From Melioribacteraceae bacterium (GTDB lineage Bacteria; Bacteroidota; Ignavibacteria; Ignavibacteriales; Melioribacteraceae): 64,000 bases of DNA. The notes beneath the pieces are model-generated. The model was given only the letters and a program-made list of their open reading frames with translations. It was not told where the DNA came from and did not search any database. Both the position numbers and the translations under genes were made by a program. Below, piece after piece: positions 3,916 through 49,747 of this stretch (positions within the stretch are counted from its first letter, which is position 1; every line of letters starts with the position of its first letter). The stretch is from positions 1-64,000 of the forward strand of contig JAKIUC010000003.1 in NCBI GenBank assembly GCA_021647785.1, in the 5' to 3' direction.

Positions 3916-3938
3916 ATGCCGAAGGCATTCCTACGGAA
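3916..3938. repeat. GC-rich short palindrome in intergenic region
   Basis: ATGCC-GAA-GGCAT followed by TTCCTACGGAA, in the 230-base gap between the AraC-type gene and the chitinase-like gene. A related CCTACGGCAAGGCA stretch occurs at about 17773-17787. It belongs to the general class of GC-rich palindromes scattered through this AT-rich window. No gene is seen in the rest of the gap (3861-4092). Confidence 0.5.
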
Positions 3939-4092: not shown

Positions 4093-6597
4093 CTATTTCA
4101 ATATAAGCATTTTTTTAGAATCGATAAATTTTCCACTCGTAATTTTATAAAAATATACTCCAGAAGTTAATTCACTTCCTGTTGCTGAGCTTGTCTCCGA
4201 ATGGATGCCTTTGGCAGAAGCATCGAATGTAACTTCGTAAGTACCTGCTCGTTGTTCTTTGTTTACAAGGGTTGCTACTTCCCTTCCAAGTATATCATAA
4301 ACTTTCAATGTTACTAACCCACCCCCACCCCCTCCCAAGAGGGGAGTTTGAACCGATGGTATTGAATATTTTATTACTGTACTTAGGTTAAAAGGATTTG
4401 GATAATTTTGATAAAGAACATATTCACTTGGGTTTAGGCTTTCATCATCAACAGATGGGGTTACATCAAATCCGCTAAGTATATTTTCAATTAACGCCGT
4501 TCTTTCTTCATCATTGTAAACCGCTTCAATCGGAAATGCTAAATAAACCACTCCGCCTGAAGTTTGTGAATCTTGATACCGTACACCAGCGTACCCTAAC
4601 GAAGTTGGTACATCCTTATAAGTAAAAATATTTTCAGCCCCATCAAATGCTTCAATAGCATCAGGCCAATCAACATCAATGGTACCGTGGGTTCCATCAT
4701 CAAAGTTAAATGCTGTGCCATCCAAATTGAGGGCAGTATAATATTTCCCTTTTTCATTATTCGGGGCATCCGAAATGTAATTTGCTTTTAGATAATTTTG
4801 ATAAAATTCCTTATCTGCATCTGAACCTTTTTCAACCAAATCCCAGCCAATCTCTGAACCAGATAGGAATAAAACTCCACCATTATCAAGATATTGTTTT
4901 ACCTTCTCCTGTTCAAGTGAGTTAAAAGTTTCATCAGCTGTGCTTTCATCCATAAGCATCCAAAAAACAAAATTATAATCTTCTAAATTAACTAAACCTT
5001 TATATACCGCTTCATTACTTGTTGATGAGAAACCTCTGTGAAGATTTGTCATGGGATAATCGTACATTCTGATGTAATCAAATGTATTGGTTGTGCCTCC
5101 TGTTCTATCAAATCCATTTACAATTAATATATCTAAATTGTTTGCACTTGAAATTGCAGCAAGTACCTCAGTCTGTGCTGATGAACCAGAGGCGTTAATT
5201 GCATCAACTTTGAAATAGTAAACAGAATCAGTTTCAAGATTTGTAATTGAAACAGAATTGGAAGTTGACTCTGTAATTTTCTCAAAATTGAGCCCGTCAG
5301 TACTCATATAAACTCCATACTTCTCAGCATAATCAACAAACTCAAAACTTAGAATTAAAGTTGTTAAATTGTGTTGTAATACTCTGAAACTCTTGGGCTT
5401 ATTAGGAATTGGAAGAGTGCCAGGACCAAATTTGTAATTAATTAAATTCCACAATTCTTGTTTATCTCCATCATAACCCAAAGCCCACATCCCTACTCCG
5501 CCAAGGTTTTGTGCAATAGCCAAGTCATATTTTTTATCTAACGATTGCACATCATCAAACCAAGTTTGATTCCACTGAGAGCCTTCCTGCCAACGAAACC
5601 AAGATGTTTGCGAAACATTATCCCAAAGCAATCCGTACATATCAGCATTATCAATATCGTTATAAAAGCGTGTAGAACCTTGATACCCTCCACTTGCTGT
5701 ATCAACTTTTGAATAAGCATTTTTAGTTTCAGTTTTCCACTCGTGTCCGTAATATGGTACACCAAGTATTAATTTCTCCGGATATTTAGAGACCGGAACT
5801 CCATAATCTACCGTAACAACAGAAGTGATATCGTGCGTAAAGCCAGTGAGAGGGGCGTTTGGTCCAGCAGTGGAACTCCAAGCACCCCAAAAAGAATATC
5901 CCATAATCAAAACATAATCACAGCTTTGTACTAAGCCATCCAAATCCCAACGGTTACCCCAATTAACTGCAGGTCCGGCAAATGAGACTTCCTTCCCAGG
6001 TAACTCTGCACGGATAAAGGCAGTTAGCTCAACCATAAAATTGTTAATACTATCGGCTTTATCTTCATGACGTAGTCCTTCAAAATCAACATTCACTCCG
6101 TCAAGCTGATAGGTTTGAATAATATTTTTTGTATCGGAAAAAAATTTTTGTTTAGAACTTTCGTTATTAATTATACTTGCAATTACATCTTTATCAAAAT
6201 TTACTGCTGTCATTATAACTTTTGTACCGGCAGAATGTGCGGCATTTATTAAGTCGGTCCAAGGCCAGGCGGATGGAAAACCAACACTGCCATCACTTGC
6301 AACCATAAAATCGAAAGCGGCAATGTGTGTTAATAAATCGTATCGTTGATTTGCATGTGCCCCTCTAAGGTACTCCCAGTCGGGCATATACCCAAATACA
6401 ATTTTTGATAATTCCTTCTGTTCATTAATTTGCAATGGAATGATACCACTTCCATCAGCAGCAAATTTACTAAACTGATTACTTAAGGTTTTGAATTCTT
6501 TATACTGAGCCTCATGGGTTGAATACTCATAAAATTCTTGTGCTGAAAGAGAAGTAAACATCAGTGCTGCTAATAATAAATAATAAAATCTATACAT
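4093..6597 (-). CDS. Secreted GH18 chitinase-like glycosidase with FN3, GATase-like and T9SS domains
   Basis: 834 residues. Signal peptide 1-19 (ending SLSAQ). GH18 barrel about 65-388: substrate-binding strand start IVFGYMPDWEY; catalytic block LDGVNVDFEG at 165-174 with E173 as the proton donor; YxxxM-type strand VLIMGYSFWG; C-terminal GVGMWALGYD. The DxxDxDxE motif has Asn at its middle Asp, as in spore-cortex YaaH-type enzymes, so the substrate may be chitin or peptidoglycan. A fibronectin III domain (about 400-485) and a ThuA/GATase-like Rossmann domain (about 488-715, with ILIVNGFDR and GGVLFLSGSEIG) follow. The T9SS sorting domain starts near 750. Two short in-frame inserts interrupt that domain: a Gly-run (PLLGGGGGGL) and AKGIHSETSSAT, both encoded by dispersed repeats. 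Likely exported, surface-associated polysaccharide degradation. Confidence 0.9.
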   Translation of the reverse strand: MYRFYYLLLAALMFTSLSAQEFYEYSTHEAQYKEFKTLSNQFSKFAADGSGIIPLQINEQKELSKIVFGYMPDWEYLRGAHANQRYDLLTHIAAFDFMVASDGSVGFPSAWPWTDLINAAHSAGTKVIMTAVNFDKDVIASIINNESSKQKFFSDTKNIIQTYQLDGVNVDFEGLRHEDKADSINNFMVELTAFIRAELPGKEVSFAGPAVNWGNRWDLDGLVQSCDYVLIMGYSFWGAWSSTAGPNAPLTGFTHDITSVVTVDYGVPVSKYPEKLILGVPYYGHEWKTETKNAYSKVDTASGGYQGSTRFYNDIDNADMYGLLWDNVSQTSWFRWQEGSQWNQTWFDDVQSLDKKYDLAIAQNLGGVGMWALGYDGDKQELWNLINYKFGPGTLPIPNKPKSFRVLQHNLTTLILSFEFVDYAEKYGVYMSTDGLNFEKITESTSNSVSITNLETDSVYYFKVDAINASGSSAQTEVLAAISSANNLDILIVNGFDRTGGTTNTFDYIRMYDYPMTNLHRGFSSTSNEAVYKGLVNLEDYNFVFWMLMDESTADETFNSLEQEKVKQYLDNGGVLFLSGSEIGWDLVEKGSDADKEFYQNYLKANYISDAPNNEKGKYYTALNLDGTAFNFDDGTHGTIDVDWPDAIEAFDGAENIFTYKDVPTSLGYAGVRYQDSQTSGGVVYLAFPIEAVYNDEERTALIENILSGFDVTPSVDDESLNPSEYVLYQNYPNPFNLSTVIKYSIPSVQTPLLGGGGGGLVTLKVYDILGREVATLVNKEQRAGTYEVTFDASAKGIHSETSSATGSELTSGVYFYKITSGKFIDSKKMLILK
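4181..4220. repeat. 40-bp dispersed repeat inside T9SS C-terminal domain (copy 1)
   Basis: Forty bases nearly identical (37 of 40 by eye) to 47440-47479, which lies in the C-terminal domain of another T9SS cargo gene. On the coding strand it encodes SAKGIHSETSSAT in frame, interrupting the normal ..FDAS/ELTSGVYFYK.. junction. It contains a TGCC-AAA-GGCA hairpin. Confidence 0.8.
4318..4352. repeat. Fragment of GC-rich composite repeat within CDS, encoding a Gly-run
   Basis: A run of ACCCACCCCC type followed by CCCCTCCCAAGAGGGG. The same core hairpin occurs in the intergenic copy at 8424-8460. Here it lies inside the chitinase-like gene and is read in frame as TPLLGGGGGGL between YSIPS and VTLKVYD of the sorting domain. 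Confidence 0.75.
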
Positions 6598-8423: not shown

Positions 8424-8540
8424 AGAACCCACCCCTTAATCCCCTCCCAAGAGGGGAAATTAGGACTATCCCGCATTTGCAGGATAGTGTAAAAAAACTT
8501 TCTCTTGGAAGAGGGTTGTCCGATGGACTCTCTGAGACAT
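8424..8540 (+). repeat. GC-rich composite repeat with nested hairpins
   Basis: Contains CCCCTC-CCAA-GAGGGG (8441-8456), ACTATCC..GGATAGT (8465-8488) and GAGGGTTGTCCGATGGACTC (8511-8530). The last part matches the complement of about 32561-32580 in the element at 32546-32637, so these are two diverged copies in opposite orientation. It lies in the 400-base gap 8258-8657, where I see no gene. Confidence 0.7.
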
Positions 8541-19759: not shown

Positions 19760-19841
19760 AATTTTCTCCTTTCGACTTCTCATTTCGGTTGCACTCGTTT
19801 CGACACGCTCAACGCATCGCAATGCACCGCAAGGCAAGTCT

Positions 19842-32670: not shown

Positions 32671-33657
32671 CTATTCTTCTGCAAAATTATTTAACTCTTT
32701 CAAATAATTAAGTAAAATTTCCTCAATTGGAGCATACTCAACATACTTCATCAACTCTTGTCTAACTTTGGATGAACCATACAAGCCTTTTAAATATCCG
32801 GTATAATATTTTCTGAATGGAATTACAGCCTGTCGTTCTTCATCCTTATATTCAATTTCATATTTTAAATGTTTCAAAGCTGTTTTAATTCTATCTTCCG
32901 CAGTAAGTTCAGGCAACTTTTTATTAGTTTCAATTAAGTATTTAGCTTCCCTAAAAATCCATGGATGATTAATAGCACCCCGAGCAATCATAACTCCATC
33001 AGCTCCTGTTTCATCAAATGCACGCTTGGCATCTTCCGCAGTAAAAACTCCGCCATTTAATACAATTGGAATATCAACAACCTCTTTAATATCAGAAATG
33101 TGAAACCATTCAGGTTCACCCGAATGCCCTTGACGGCTATGGCGACAGTGGATTGTTAACTCCCTTGCTCCAGCATCTTCAAGACGTTTTGCAATTTCAC
33201 AAATTATAATTGAATCGGCATCCCAACCAATACGAGTTTTTACTGTTACTGGAATTTTCACAGCTTTTACAATTGCTGCAACCATTGCTTCCATATAATC
33301 GGGGTCTTTAAGCAATCCGGAGCCAGCACCACGCTTCACAACCTTTTTAACCCAACAGCCAGCATTTATATCAATTATATCAGGATTCATCTCCTCAGCC
33401 ATTTTAGCGGCTTCAACCATTGTATCAATATCAGCACCATATATTTGAATTCCGACTGGACGCTCTTCCTCTCGGATTTCCATTTTTTTTGCTGTCTTTT
33501 TGTTTTTTCTGATTAATCCATCAGAGTTCACAAATTCGGTGTAAACAATATCTGCTCCCATTTCTTTGCATAACCTACGGAAACCGAGTCCGGTAACATC
33601 CTCCATTGGTGCAAGGAGTAGTGGCTTTTCAAATTCTATTTTATCTATTTTGAACAT
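32671..33657 (-). CDS. dusB: tRNA-dihydrouridine synthase (DusB type)
   Basis: 328 residues. FMN-dependent reduction of uridines in the tRNA D-loop. The TIM barrel shows LLLAPMEDVTGLGFRRL, the catalytic Cys in DINAGCWVKKVVKRGAGS (family NxGCP-like loop), KTRIGWD, the FMN-contacting HCRHSRQGHSG, VLNGGVF and GVMIARGAINHPWIF. The C-terminal helical domain includes FRKYYTGYLKGL. Its ATG directly abuts the stop of the MFS gene upstream, so the two form an operon. Confidence 0.95.
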   Translation of the reverse strand: MFKIDKIEFEKPLLLAPMEDVTGLGFRRLCKEMGADIVYTEFVNSDGLIRKNKKTAKKMEIREEERPVGIQIYGADIDTMVEAAKMAEEMNPDIIDINAGCWVKKVVKRGAGSGLLKDPDYMEAMVAAIVKAVKIPVTVKTRIGWDADSIIICEIAKRLEDAGARELTIHCRHSRQGHSGEPEWFHISDIKEVVDIPIVLNGGVFTAEDAKRAFDETGADGVMIARGAINHPWIFREAKYLIETNKKLPELTAEDRIKTALKHLKYEIEYKDEERQAVIPFRKYYTGYLKGLYGSSKVRQELMKYVEYAPIEEILLNYLKELNNFAEE

Positions 33658-47402: not shown

Positions 47403-49511
47403 TTATTTGATAAGCAACATCTTATTTGTTTGTGTAAAGGTTGCTGAGTTAGTCTCCGAATGGATACCTTTGGCAGAAGTACCAACTCTAATTCTATAGA
47501 AATAGATTCCACTTGAAAGATTTATAGCATTAAAATTTACTGAGTGAAAACCCGCAGTCATTTCTTGGTTTACTAATTTTGCAACTTCCTCTCCAATACT
47601 GTTAAATATTTTTAGATTTACATTTCCACTCTCTGGTATTGCAAATTCTATTACGGTACTTGGGTTAAATGGATTTGGATAGTTTTGTGAAAGTGAATAT
47701 TCTTTGGGAATCACTTCACTCCCCTCTTCAACATCTGTTAAACTTTGGATTATAATACTGCGAGAATTATTACCGTCAACAATACATTGGTAAGTTGCGT
47801 TATCTGGTTGTAATCCATTTGAAAATGTAAGTACATTACTATTTTCTCCTGAAATATCATTGCCATTTTTAGTCCACTGATAATTCGTTCCATCAATCAT
47901 TGCATCAAACATTATAGAATTGCTAATTATGGCAGAGTCTGAGGGCATAGAAATAAATTGGTCTTCAGTACCATTTAATAAAATCTGACTAATACTTTTC
48001 CAACTCCCTTCATTGGTTAAATTCCCCGATATTTCAAAGTAATAGTTATCTATCTTACCGGCATTAGTAATATTACCAAGAATATAATTATTTGAATTCC
48101 AAGTCCCATTGTTTACAACACTTCCTTGAATTAAATTATTAACTTTCATATTCCCATCATTAGTAATATTGCAATTTAATGTAGCATTCCCTTCAAAAAG
48201 ACCATCTTCTATAATTTCTATATCACCAATAAAAGTTGTTGGATTATTTGTTTTAATGTATTTAATTTTTGCATTCGTAATGGTGCTAGTTTTAGTACGT
48301 AACCCTTTCGCATTTTTAAGAACTGAATTATTGGCATTAAGAACTGTATTGTCCATCCCAAAATTAATTAGTTCCCCATTATACGGAAGAATTAATTTTC
48401 CTCCATTCATATTGATATTTAATTTGGCATCAAAACTTGATACTAATCCTCCAACATCTGTTACTGTTTTAACATTCACAATTGTGTTAGTATCTAATCC
48501 AATAAGTTCACTCAACTCTAAAGAATCGCCATCTGCCCAAAATTCATGCGAATTATAGAATAAAATACTCTTATTTCTAATTATTCCTAAATTAATAAGA
48601 CGACCACTCTTAATACGGAGTTCTAGTCCATGATCCGGATGCCATCCATTTTTATCAATAATTCCGTTATTATACAATTCACCCTCAACAAAAATTGTTT
48701 TGCTATAATTCTCTTGAGCATTTATTATTGTTCCATTATTAACAACATTTCCTAATAATGTGGTTGTTCCTATTGTGGAATCAATAGATGAGCCGTTAAA
48801 ATTTAAGTATCCTTCCAATATTGCATCTTTTACAAAAGTATGTTGTTGTTCATTAAAACCACCACTAAAGCCTATAGTACTATTGCCTTTACCAAGTATT
48901 ACATTATTATTACACTCAATTACTCCACCATCAATTAGTCCATTATTTAATATTAATGTATCTGGGGTAACATAACCACCAGGTAAAATTATTTTTGAAC
49001 CACCTAATAAAAAATTTCCTGAAATAGAAGCAACACTATCAATAATAAAAGTTGATGCAGCGTTTCTTCCGAAGGCAGATCCAAAAGAGATAGTGTTACC
49101 ATTGTATGTTCGTAAATGGTGGTCTGCACTCCCTTCAAAATTAGTGGTACCAGTTATATAGATACCATCATTGATTATATCTCCATTTATTCTAACTGTT
49201 AAATAATCGCTTCCGTGATCTGGATGATCTCTCAACTCACCTTTATTTAAAAGGTCTCCATAAATACGCAGATATTCACCACCATAAACTTTCCCATTAA
49301 TAGTTAAATTTCTGCAAATATCTCCACCCATCGTACTTAGTATATGATTTATAATAACTGATGAATTTGAATCTGGTAATGCAGTTGCATTTTGGTCGGA
49401 AGACCAAGTTGAGGGAACTCGCCATTCTCCATCTTTAACCGATGTAAATTGTGCAAAATTATTGATTGTAAAAATTGATAGGACAAAAATAACTGATAAT
49501 AATTTTTTCAT
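47403..49511 (-). CDS. Secreted T9SS-sorted beta-helix-like protein
   Basis: 702 residues from the ATG at 49511, with GGAGG five bases before it. Signal peptide MKKLLSVIFVLSIFTINNFAQ. The region about 25-520 consists of short strands with periodic Asn/Gly turns (LTINGKVYGG, VRINGDIINDGIYITG, NVVNNGTIINAQ, VNNGTWNSNN), typical of a right-handed beta-helix or filamentous surface protein. An Ig-like segment follows (about 535-600, YQWTKNGNDISG..YQCIVDGN), then a T9SS sorting domain (SQNYPNPFNPSTVIEFAIP). In that domain, SAKGIHSETNSAT is encoded by the 40-bp dispersed repeat also found in the chitinase-like gene. Likely adhesin or surface-layer cargo. Confidence 0.85.
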   Translation of the reverse strand: MKKLLSVIFVLSIFTINNFAQFTSVKDGEWRVPSTWSSDQNATALPDSNSSVIINHILSTMGGDICRNLTINGKVYGGEYLRIYGDLLNKGELRDHPDHGSDYLTVRINGDIINDGIYITGTTNFEGSADHHLRTYNGNTISFGSAFGRNAASTFIIDSVASISGNFLLGGSKIILPGGYVTPDTLILNNGLIDGGVIECNNNVILGKGNSTIGFSGGFNEQQHTFVKDAILEGYLNFNGSSIDSTIGTTTLLGNVVNNGTIINAQENYSKTIFVEGELYNNGIIDKNGWHPDHGLELRIKSGRLINLGIIRNKSILFYNSHEFWADGDSLELSELIGLDTNTIVNVKTVTDVGGLVSSFDAKLNINMNGGKLILPYNGELINFGMDNTVLNANNSVLKNAKGLRTKTSTITNAKIKYIKTNNPTTFIGDIEIIEDGLFEGNATLNCNITNDGNMKVNNLIQGSVVNNGTWNSNNYILGNITNAGKIDNYYFEISGNLTNEGSWKSISQILLNGTEDQFISMPSDSAIISNSIMFDAMIDGTNYQWTKNGNDISGENSNVLTFSNGLQPDNATYQCIVDGNNSRSIIIQSLTDVEEGSEVIPKEYSLSQNYPNPFNPSTVIEFAIPESGNVNLKIFNSIGEEVAKLVNQEMTAGFHSVNFNAINLSSGIYFYRIRVGTSAKGIHSETNSATFTQTNKMLLIK
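47440..47479. repeat. 40-bp dispersed repeat inside T9SS C-terminal domain (copy 2)
   Basis: Near-identical partner of 4181-4220, in the same orientation and reading frame with respect to the host gene. It sits after YFYRIRVGT, a different place in the domain from copy 1. Confidence 0.8.
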
Positions 49512-49747
49512 CTTTTCCTCCATATTGAACTTTGTTTTGCAATATTACATTTAAACAAACTATATATAATTTAGTATCTATATTTTTTAAAGATTAGCTA
49601 GTTCAACAAATCGGATATTATTATCTAATAGCAAAGATTATATCAGATAAATGAATATCTACATTATTTTAAATAAATTAACACTCATTAAAATAAAAAA
49701 TGTTCACTTCAATATGTAAGTAAAATTACATTCGCTATTATATTTTT

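Follow-up and report, generated by a model that had tools for sequence, protein, structure and literature searches.

A 40-bp repeat in two T9SS sorting domains is probably the core of a dispersed hairpin element in a Melioribacteraceae genome

A 40-bp sequence that recurs in frame in the sorting domains of two T9SS proteins from a Melioribacteraceae bacterium can be explained, with a probability that we put at about 0.88, as the core of a ~45-nt hairpin that spreads as DNA and was built from a short hairpin and a 21-nt loop module. The window referred to below is the whole stretch of DNA analyzed, 64,000 nucleotides in length.

Results

Comparison of the window with itself by BLASTN revealed 37/40 identical bases (92.5%, E 8e-11) between positions 4181-4220 and 47440-47479, with nothing alignable in the flanks on either side. 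A first-pass annotation had described these tracts as nearly identical DNA in otherwise unrelated hosts, and this was borne out: both lie in frame inside two C-terminal T9SS type A sorting domains, and this domain is all that the two host proteins have in common. The features concerned are as follows.

Positions 4181-4220, minus strand: copy 1 of the long hairpin element, 40-bp conserved core, encoding SAKGIHSETSSAT
Positions 47440-47479, minus strand: copy 2 of the long hairpin element, encoding TSAKGIHSETNSAT
Positions 4093-6597, minus strand: host gene 1, 834 aa, with GH18, fn3 and Por_Secre_tail (T9SS type A) domains; sorting domain at about 4096-4428
Positions 47403-49523, minus strand: host gene 2, a 706-aa secreted protein with Por_Secre_tail (T9SS type A); sorting domain at about 47406-47705

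A covariance model of the element matched copy 1 at 4177-4228 (66.5 bits) and copy 2 at 47436-47487 (60.1 bits). Around the inserts, the proteins read ...FDASAKGIHSETSSATGSELTSG... (host gene 1) and ...YRIRVGTSAKGIHSETNSATFTQTNKM... (host gene 2), and, as the annotation had stated, the insertion points within the sorting domain are not the same. Mapping onto AlphaFold2 models placed the inserts in separate loops, lying between strands at CTD residues 62-69 and 90-98 for host gene 1 and between strands 66-75 and 89-98 for host gene 2. The pLDDT was <50 at residues 75-81 of the first sorting-domain model and averaged near 62 over residues 81-90 of the second. The T9SS sorting-domain profile likewise excludes the insert, which fills a loop. 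Such positioning of sorting-domain copies in low-confidence loops of the models is consistent with the earlier proposal that T9SS C-termini may tolerate inserts in turns. Foldseek searches with the sorting-domain model gave weak beta-sandwich matches only.

Orthologue comparison showed that the peptide was inserted. In each of four congeners, the orthologue of host gene 1 (70-75% identity) is shorter at this point by exactly 14 residues (42 nt), which defines a net insert at about 4178-4219 in copy 1. The best orthologue of host gene 2 (57%; L265 in G003) reads YRITAGNFEQTNKM where the window protein has YRIRVGTSAKGIHSETNSATFTQTNKM and carries no insert. An AKGIHSET-like peptide is likewise missing from almost all of the ~80 further sorting domains compared, and an in-genome paralogue (C17) lacks the insert present in C34 and C63. 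The opposite reading, that the peptide belonged to the ancestral sorting domain and was lost in some orthologues, found no supporting point; it is ruled out by the insert-free orthologues of both host genes and argued against by the other domains compared, which leaves it a probability of practically nil. The empty site examined in this respect, that of the host gene 1 orthologues, showed no target-site duplication. A length difference was also observed in mnmE, the product of which comprises 453-456 aa in two congeners versus 520 aa in the present genome.

The repeat had been annotated as a 40-bp unit of T9SS genes. The repeat itself is real, but the 40 bp make up the interior of a hairpin element of ~45 nt that also occurs outside T9SS genes. 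The layout comprises a self-complementary, variable terminal stem of 5-8 bp, then TTC-TGCCAAAGGCATCCATTCGGA-G(A/G)C, then TCCGCTC or AAGCTC, and finally the second stem arm. The whole element is visible outside sorting domains, for example as GGTGGTT-TCTGCCAAAGGCATCCATTCGGAGGCTCCGCTC-AACCACC. The arms vary among copies yet pair within each, as in GGTAGCT/AGCTACC and GTCATT/AATGAC. For 13 long copies, covariation over a three-stem fold was 0.308 versus 0.144 after shuffling (0/500) and was lost when the partners were slid; the outer stem alone gave 0.462 versus 0.171 for shuffled long copies. Well-preserved copies fold as a cloverleaf in single-strand folding. In the window copies, this cloverleaf has decayed and the terminal stems are degraded, and these sorting-domain copies therefore need not be active.

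The covariance-model search (E<1e-4) identified 19 copies of the long element in the genome and one each in congeners G002 and G003, whereas in 55 other relatives no match exceeded 27 bits and none was convincing. A match in G039 was weak (26 bits), and matches of 18-25 bits in other relatives were left out of the counts; those for the genome come from searches by model and by pattern and from retrieved stretches. One match, in a Candidatus Omnitrophica record (L049), was rejected as a chance hit: it falls in a gene reading SEVGPAKGIHSEH, and the stems are absent. In another species, G003, a copy next to an unrelated gene matches copy 1 without a mismatch over 41 bp. The exact core also occurs in G003, a genome of the same genus (L011), and in the Melioribacteraceae record L048, where the flanking sequence is the same.

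Of the 19 long copies, 12 lie inside open reading frames (ORFs): nine in T9SS cargo genes, one in mnmE, one in a 590-aa ORF (C18) and one in C29, where it extends the C-terminus of a protein resembling an HD-domain hydrolase. The other seven are intergenic, including one between nuoC-like and nuoD-like genes. The T9SS type A sorting domain (TIGR04183/PF18962 Por_Secre_tail) hosts 6/19 copies, namely two in the window, two in C34 and one each in C63 and C9. Another three, oriented the other way, sit in upstream parts of T9SS cargo genes; those in C9 and C38 read VAERS...SYRLKQI, and that in C15 reads TEAERNLQMDAYGRSW. In mnmE (L163, G000:C19:70162-71721), ~65 extra residues between NKVDL and KISVK include one long element and one short relative, such that the stretch is at least partly repeat-made. 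Congener G003 has 28 residues of another kind inserted at this site, so that insertion into this housekeeping GTPase has recurred at one point. Tandem diverged long elements with a period of about 44 nt were also observed in intergenic DNA at about 33160-33240 of G000:C24 (L239).

The coding copies are read in four frames and in both orientations, reverse-strand frames included, and five of the six reading frames of the element consensus are open. It follows that what was dispersed is DNA and not a peptide domain. In this respect, the annotation of a coding mobile repeat stands, the mobility being judged from the distribution of the 19 copies and part of the T9SS spread probably reflecting conversion. 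All six sorting-domain copies use one common frame, as would be expected if the AKGIHSET peptide were selected for a function (as a processing, glycosylation or binding site) with the DNA similarity following. However, other proteins read the same DNA in other frames, giving VAERSLRMDAYGRS, LSEASEWMPLVEMT and GGFCQRHPFGGSAQP, and the best-preserved hairpins are copies outside sorting domains. Selection for the peptide is thus extremely improbable, and neutral tolerance of the extra residues is taken as the default.

T9SS cargo ORFs make up about 8-10% of the genome and contain 9/19 long copies. When shared sites were merged, about 6/16 events fell in T9SS genes, for which the binomial P (roughly 0.001-0.003) is only approximate because the events were merged by hand. 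There are about 150-200 paralogous sorting domains per genome, and some probably exchange sequence. Host gene 1 and C9 carry the same insert within flanks of 86 and 84% DNA identity, compared with 72 and 56% between the host gene 1 sorting domain and its own orthologue; given this closer match to C9, the host gene 1 copy may have arrived by sorting-domain conversion. The same domain is an apparent mosaic with a third domain around a QTPLLGG insert (described below), and the C34 and C63 copies have one common site and similar flanks. Part of the spread within the T9SS family was therefore probably due to sorting-domain gene conversion or duplication. It is very unlikely, though, that such exchange within T9SS genes is the whole explanation and that the peptide marks a domain subtype and not a mobile DNA repeat. 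The copies in mnmE, the 590-aa ORF, the C-terminal extension and seven intergenic positions are without sorting-domain flanks and refute it as the sole cause, and reverse-strand frames are in use. In addition, the host gene 2 repeat is 92.5% like that of host gene 1, but its flanks match the C34 and C63 domains no better than they match the empty paralogue, and so show no sign of gene conversion.

A shorter hairpin, stem-TTCGACTCCGCTC-stem, occurs across the order. Its core, TTCG(A/G)CTCCGCTC or TTCGACAAGCTC, is flanked by the same kind of arms in about 40 candidate copies in the genome. The arms of 42 candidate sequences, a few of which are chance matches, gave 3.10 contiguous pairs versus 1.28 after shuffling (sd 0.16), and 32 short copies at loci of related genomes gave 4.06 versus 1.62. 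An exact 14-mer, TTCGACTCCGCTCA, was found in 29/97 relatives with zero control matches. In three homologous contexts, short and long forms share one site and differ by exactly 21 nt, as follows.

Short/long pair 1: C41 and C9
Short/long pair 2: C85 and the window copy
Short/long pair 3: C1 and C98

Because the difference is exactly 21 nt in all three contexts, the long form is most simply read as the short hairpin with a 21-nt in-frame module in its loop. Gain of the module is likelier than loss, as the long form was found in this genus only, unlike the widespread short form. Short copies fill further loops, encoding STSSAT in two sorting domains and FDKLN in two cargo proteins. Other genera of the order carry the short core in reverse and in a different loop, the first of the sorting domain, where it is read as LSGVEG (L271, L272, L274 and L298). 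The window itself contains a related short core.

Positions 19799-19811, plus strand: short core TTCGACACGCTCA, one mismatch, just upstream of the start of a dnaK-like gene

Elsewhere (L070, G000:C95:5198-5246), a 543-aa ORF that may encode a restriction-modification subunit has two oppositely oriented short cores in frame close to its N-terminus (ASTSLSIPVPSSLSGVE).

One upstream cargo site, marked by SYRLKQI, bears elements in eight genes, in either orientation and in short, long or nested form, with an AGCTACC arm in 5/8. This variety suggests resident cassettes that stay at the site while their form changes. Of the eight genes, five use TACC for the codons that form one arm, whereas element-free genes mostly have TATAGA. 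This contrast argues against a target-templated origin of one stem arm, a possibility that was rejected, and it indicates that the arm was probably brought by the element.

Other repeats were seen in the window, among them a second, unrelated one in the same sorting domain of host gene 1.

Positions 4318-4356, minus strand: repeat-derived insert in the host gene 1 sorting domain, encoding QTPLLGGGGGG, with the core hairpin CCCCTCTTGGGAGGGG at 4329-4344
Positions 8441-8456, no strand assigned: intergenic copy of the CCCCTCCCAAGAGGGG hairpin, the same repeat as the QTPLLGGGGGG insert

Host gene 1 is one of at least eight genes in the genome whose products carry QTPLLGG(V/G)GGG-like peptides in this sorting-domain loop. 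A VETR(R/H)G peptide that recurs in the first sorting-domain loop (L103, L127, L136 and L151) probably represents a further repeat family. Adjoining host gene 1, intergenic GGCATTCCTACGGA at 3924-3937 resembles a dispersed genome motif, GGGATTCCTTCGGA (e.g. C25:76838).

Discussion

Rickettsia and some REP-rich genomes provide the best-known cases of small palindromic repeats inserted in frame into genes. The first-pass annotation had likened the present repeat to the Rickettsia palindromic elements (RPEs), and the comparison holds as an analogy: set beside published descriptions, the element works like RPEs and intragenic REPs. RPEs are small palindromic repeats that lie in frame in unrelated genes, housekeeping genes included, and also between genes; several families occur per genome, and clusters can encode tens of residues (PMC10969869, PMC3733652). 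In-frame insertion into coding genes is likewise evident here from the empty orthologues of host gene 1, host gene 2 and mnmE. RPEs, however, are ~150 bp (PMC10969869), with RPE-4 and RPE-6 being short CGTC-tagged repeats (PMC3733652), whereas the present element is ~45 nt, untagged and found in Ignavibacteria, with stems that vary among copies and T9SS genes as the main host.

Intragenic GTAG- and CGTC-tagged REPs are 20-40-bp hairpins whose stems and loops are heterogeneous; some occupy a single site in related genes, and some form clusters encoding 43-82 residues (PMC3733652). The present family resembles them as a set of heterogeneous short hairpins in many copies (19 long and about 40 candidate short, with covarying stems), some inside ORFs. 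REPs are mostly extragenic, and many of the intragenic ones reported lie in DNA synthesis and repair genes (PMC3733652); by contrast, 12/19 long copies lie inside ORFs here, and the hosts are mostly secreted proteins. No terminal GTAG or CGTC tetranucleotide was invariant in an alignment (A1) of the copies, the arms of which vary, and lacking such a tag the element falls outside the tagged REP superfamilies as defined in those descriptions. Against the definition of a MITE, the arms are self-complementary but copy-specific, the one empty site shows no target duplication, and the search for a partner enzyme covered Y1_Tnp. In the literature searched, the core sequence was not found named in any paper, and, within the collection searched, T9SS domains were not found linked with palindromic repeats.

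The following scheme would account for these observations. The long hairpin would derive from the order-wide short hairpin by gain of the 21-nt module in its loop, and the element would spread as DNA into many unrelated places in either orientation, the distribution pointing to active mobility. Copies landing in frame in protein loops would survive, since five of the six frames are open and the length change can be a multiple of three. T9SS cargo may be the main sink, the numerous paralogous sorting domains having loops that tolerate extra residues, and recombination among these domains would spread some copies further. Copying itself may proceed via short microhomologies and single-stranded or template-switch intermediates, carried out by host enzymes or by a Y1-type transposase in trans.

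Between these two agents, host-mediated copying at short homologies is preferred with moderate confidence. Its main rival, compatible with the rest of the scheme and concerning the copying step only, is that a Y1/IS200-type transposase mobilizes the elements in trans, as proposed for REPs and RAYTs. The hairpin structure of the element and the presence of Y1_Tnp genes in the genome, two of them encoding complete single-domain proteins of about 150 aa, are consistent with this. No element copy, however, lies within about 1.5 kb of any Y1_Tnp gene, so that a linked RAYT-type transposase or other mobilizing enzyme was not identified, and the element ends lack a conserved GTAG/GGAG tag. Transposition in trans is accordingly considered unlikely, although appreciably less so than the alternatives weighed above.

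The present case adds the Ignavibacteria, and an untagged hairpin family, to the known intragenic palindromic repeats. The large natural set of paralogous sorting domains renders insertion, in-frame growth and loop tolerance countable, and makes testable both repeat copying without an obvious enzyme and the role of repeat-derived loops in secretion or surface display. More tentatively, T9SS cargo across the bacterial order might act as a general sink that turns dispersed hairpins into loop peptides, with the hairpins as site-resident cassettes that are always in frame (switching between short and long, flipping the core between the arms or taking a further element into the loop) and with landing set by self-pairing arms that fit host codons. 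If this doubtful extension were true, site-resident cassettes would represent template- or homology-guided hairpin propagation without a dedicated transposase.
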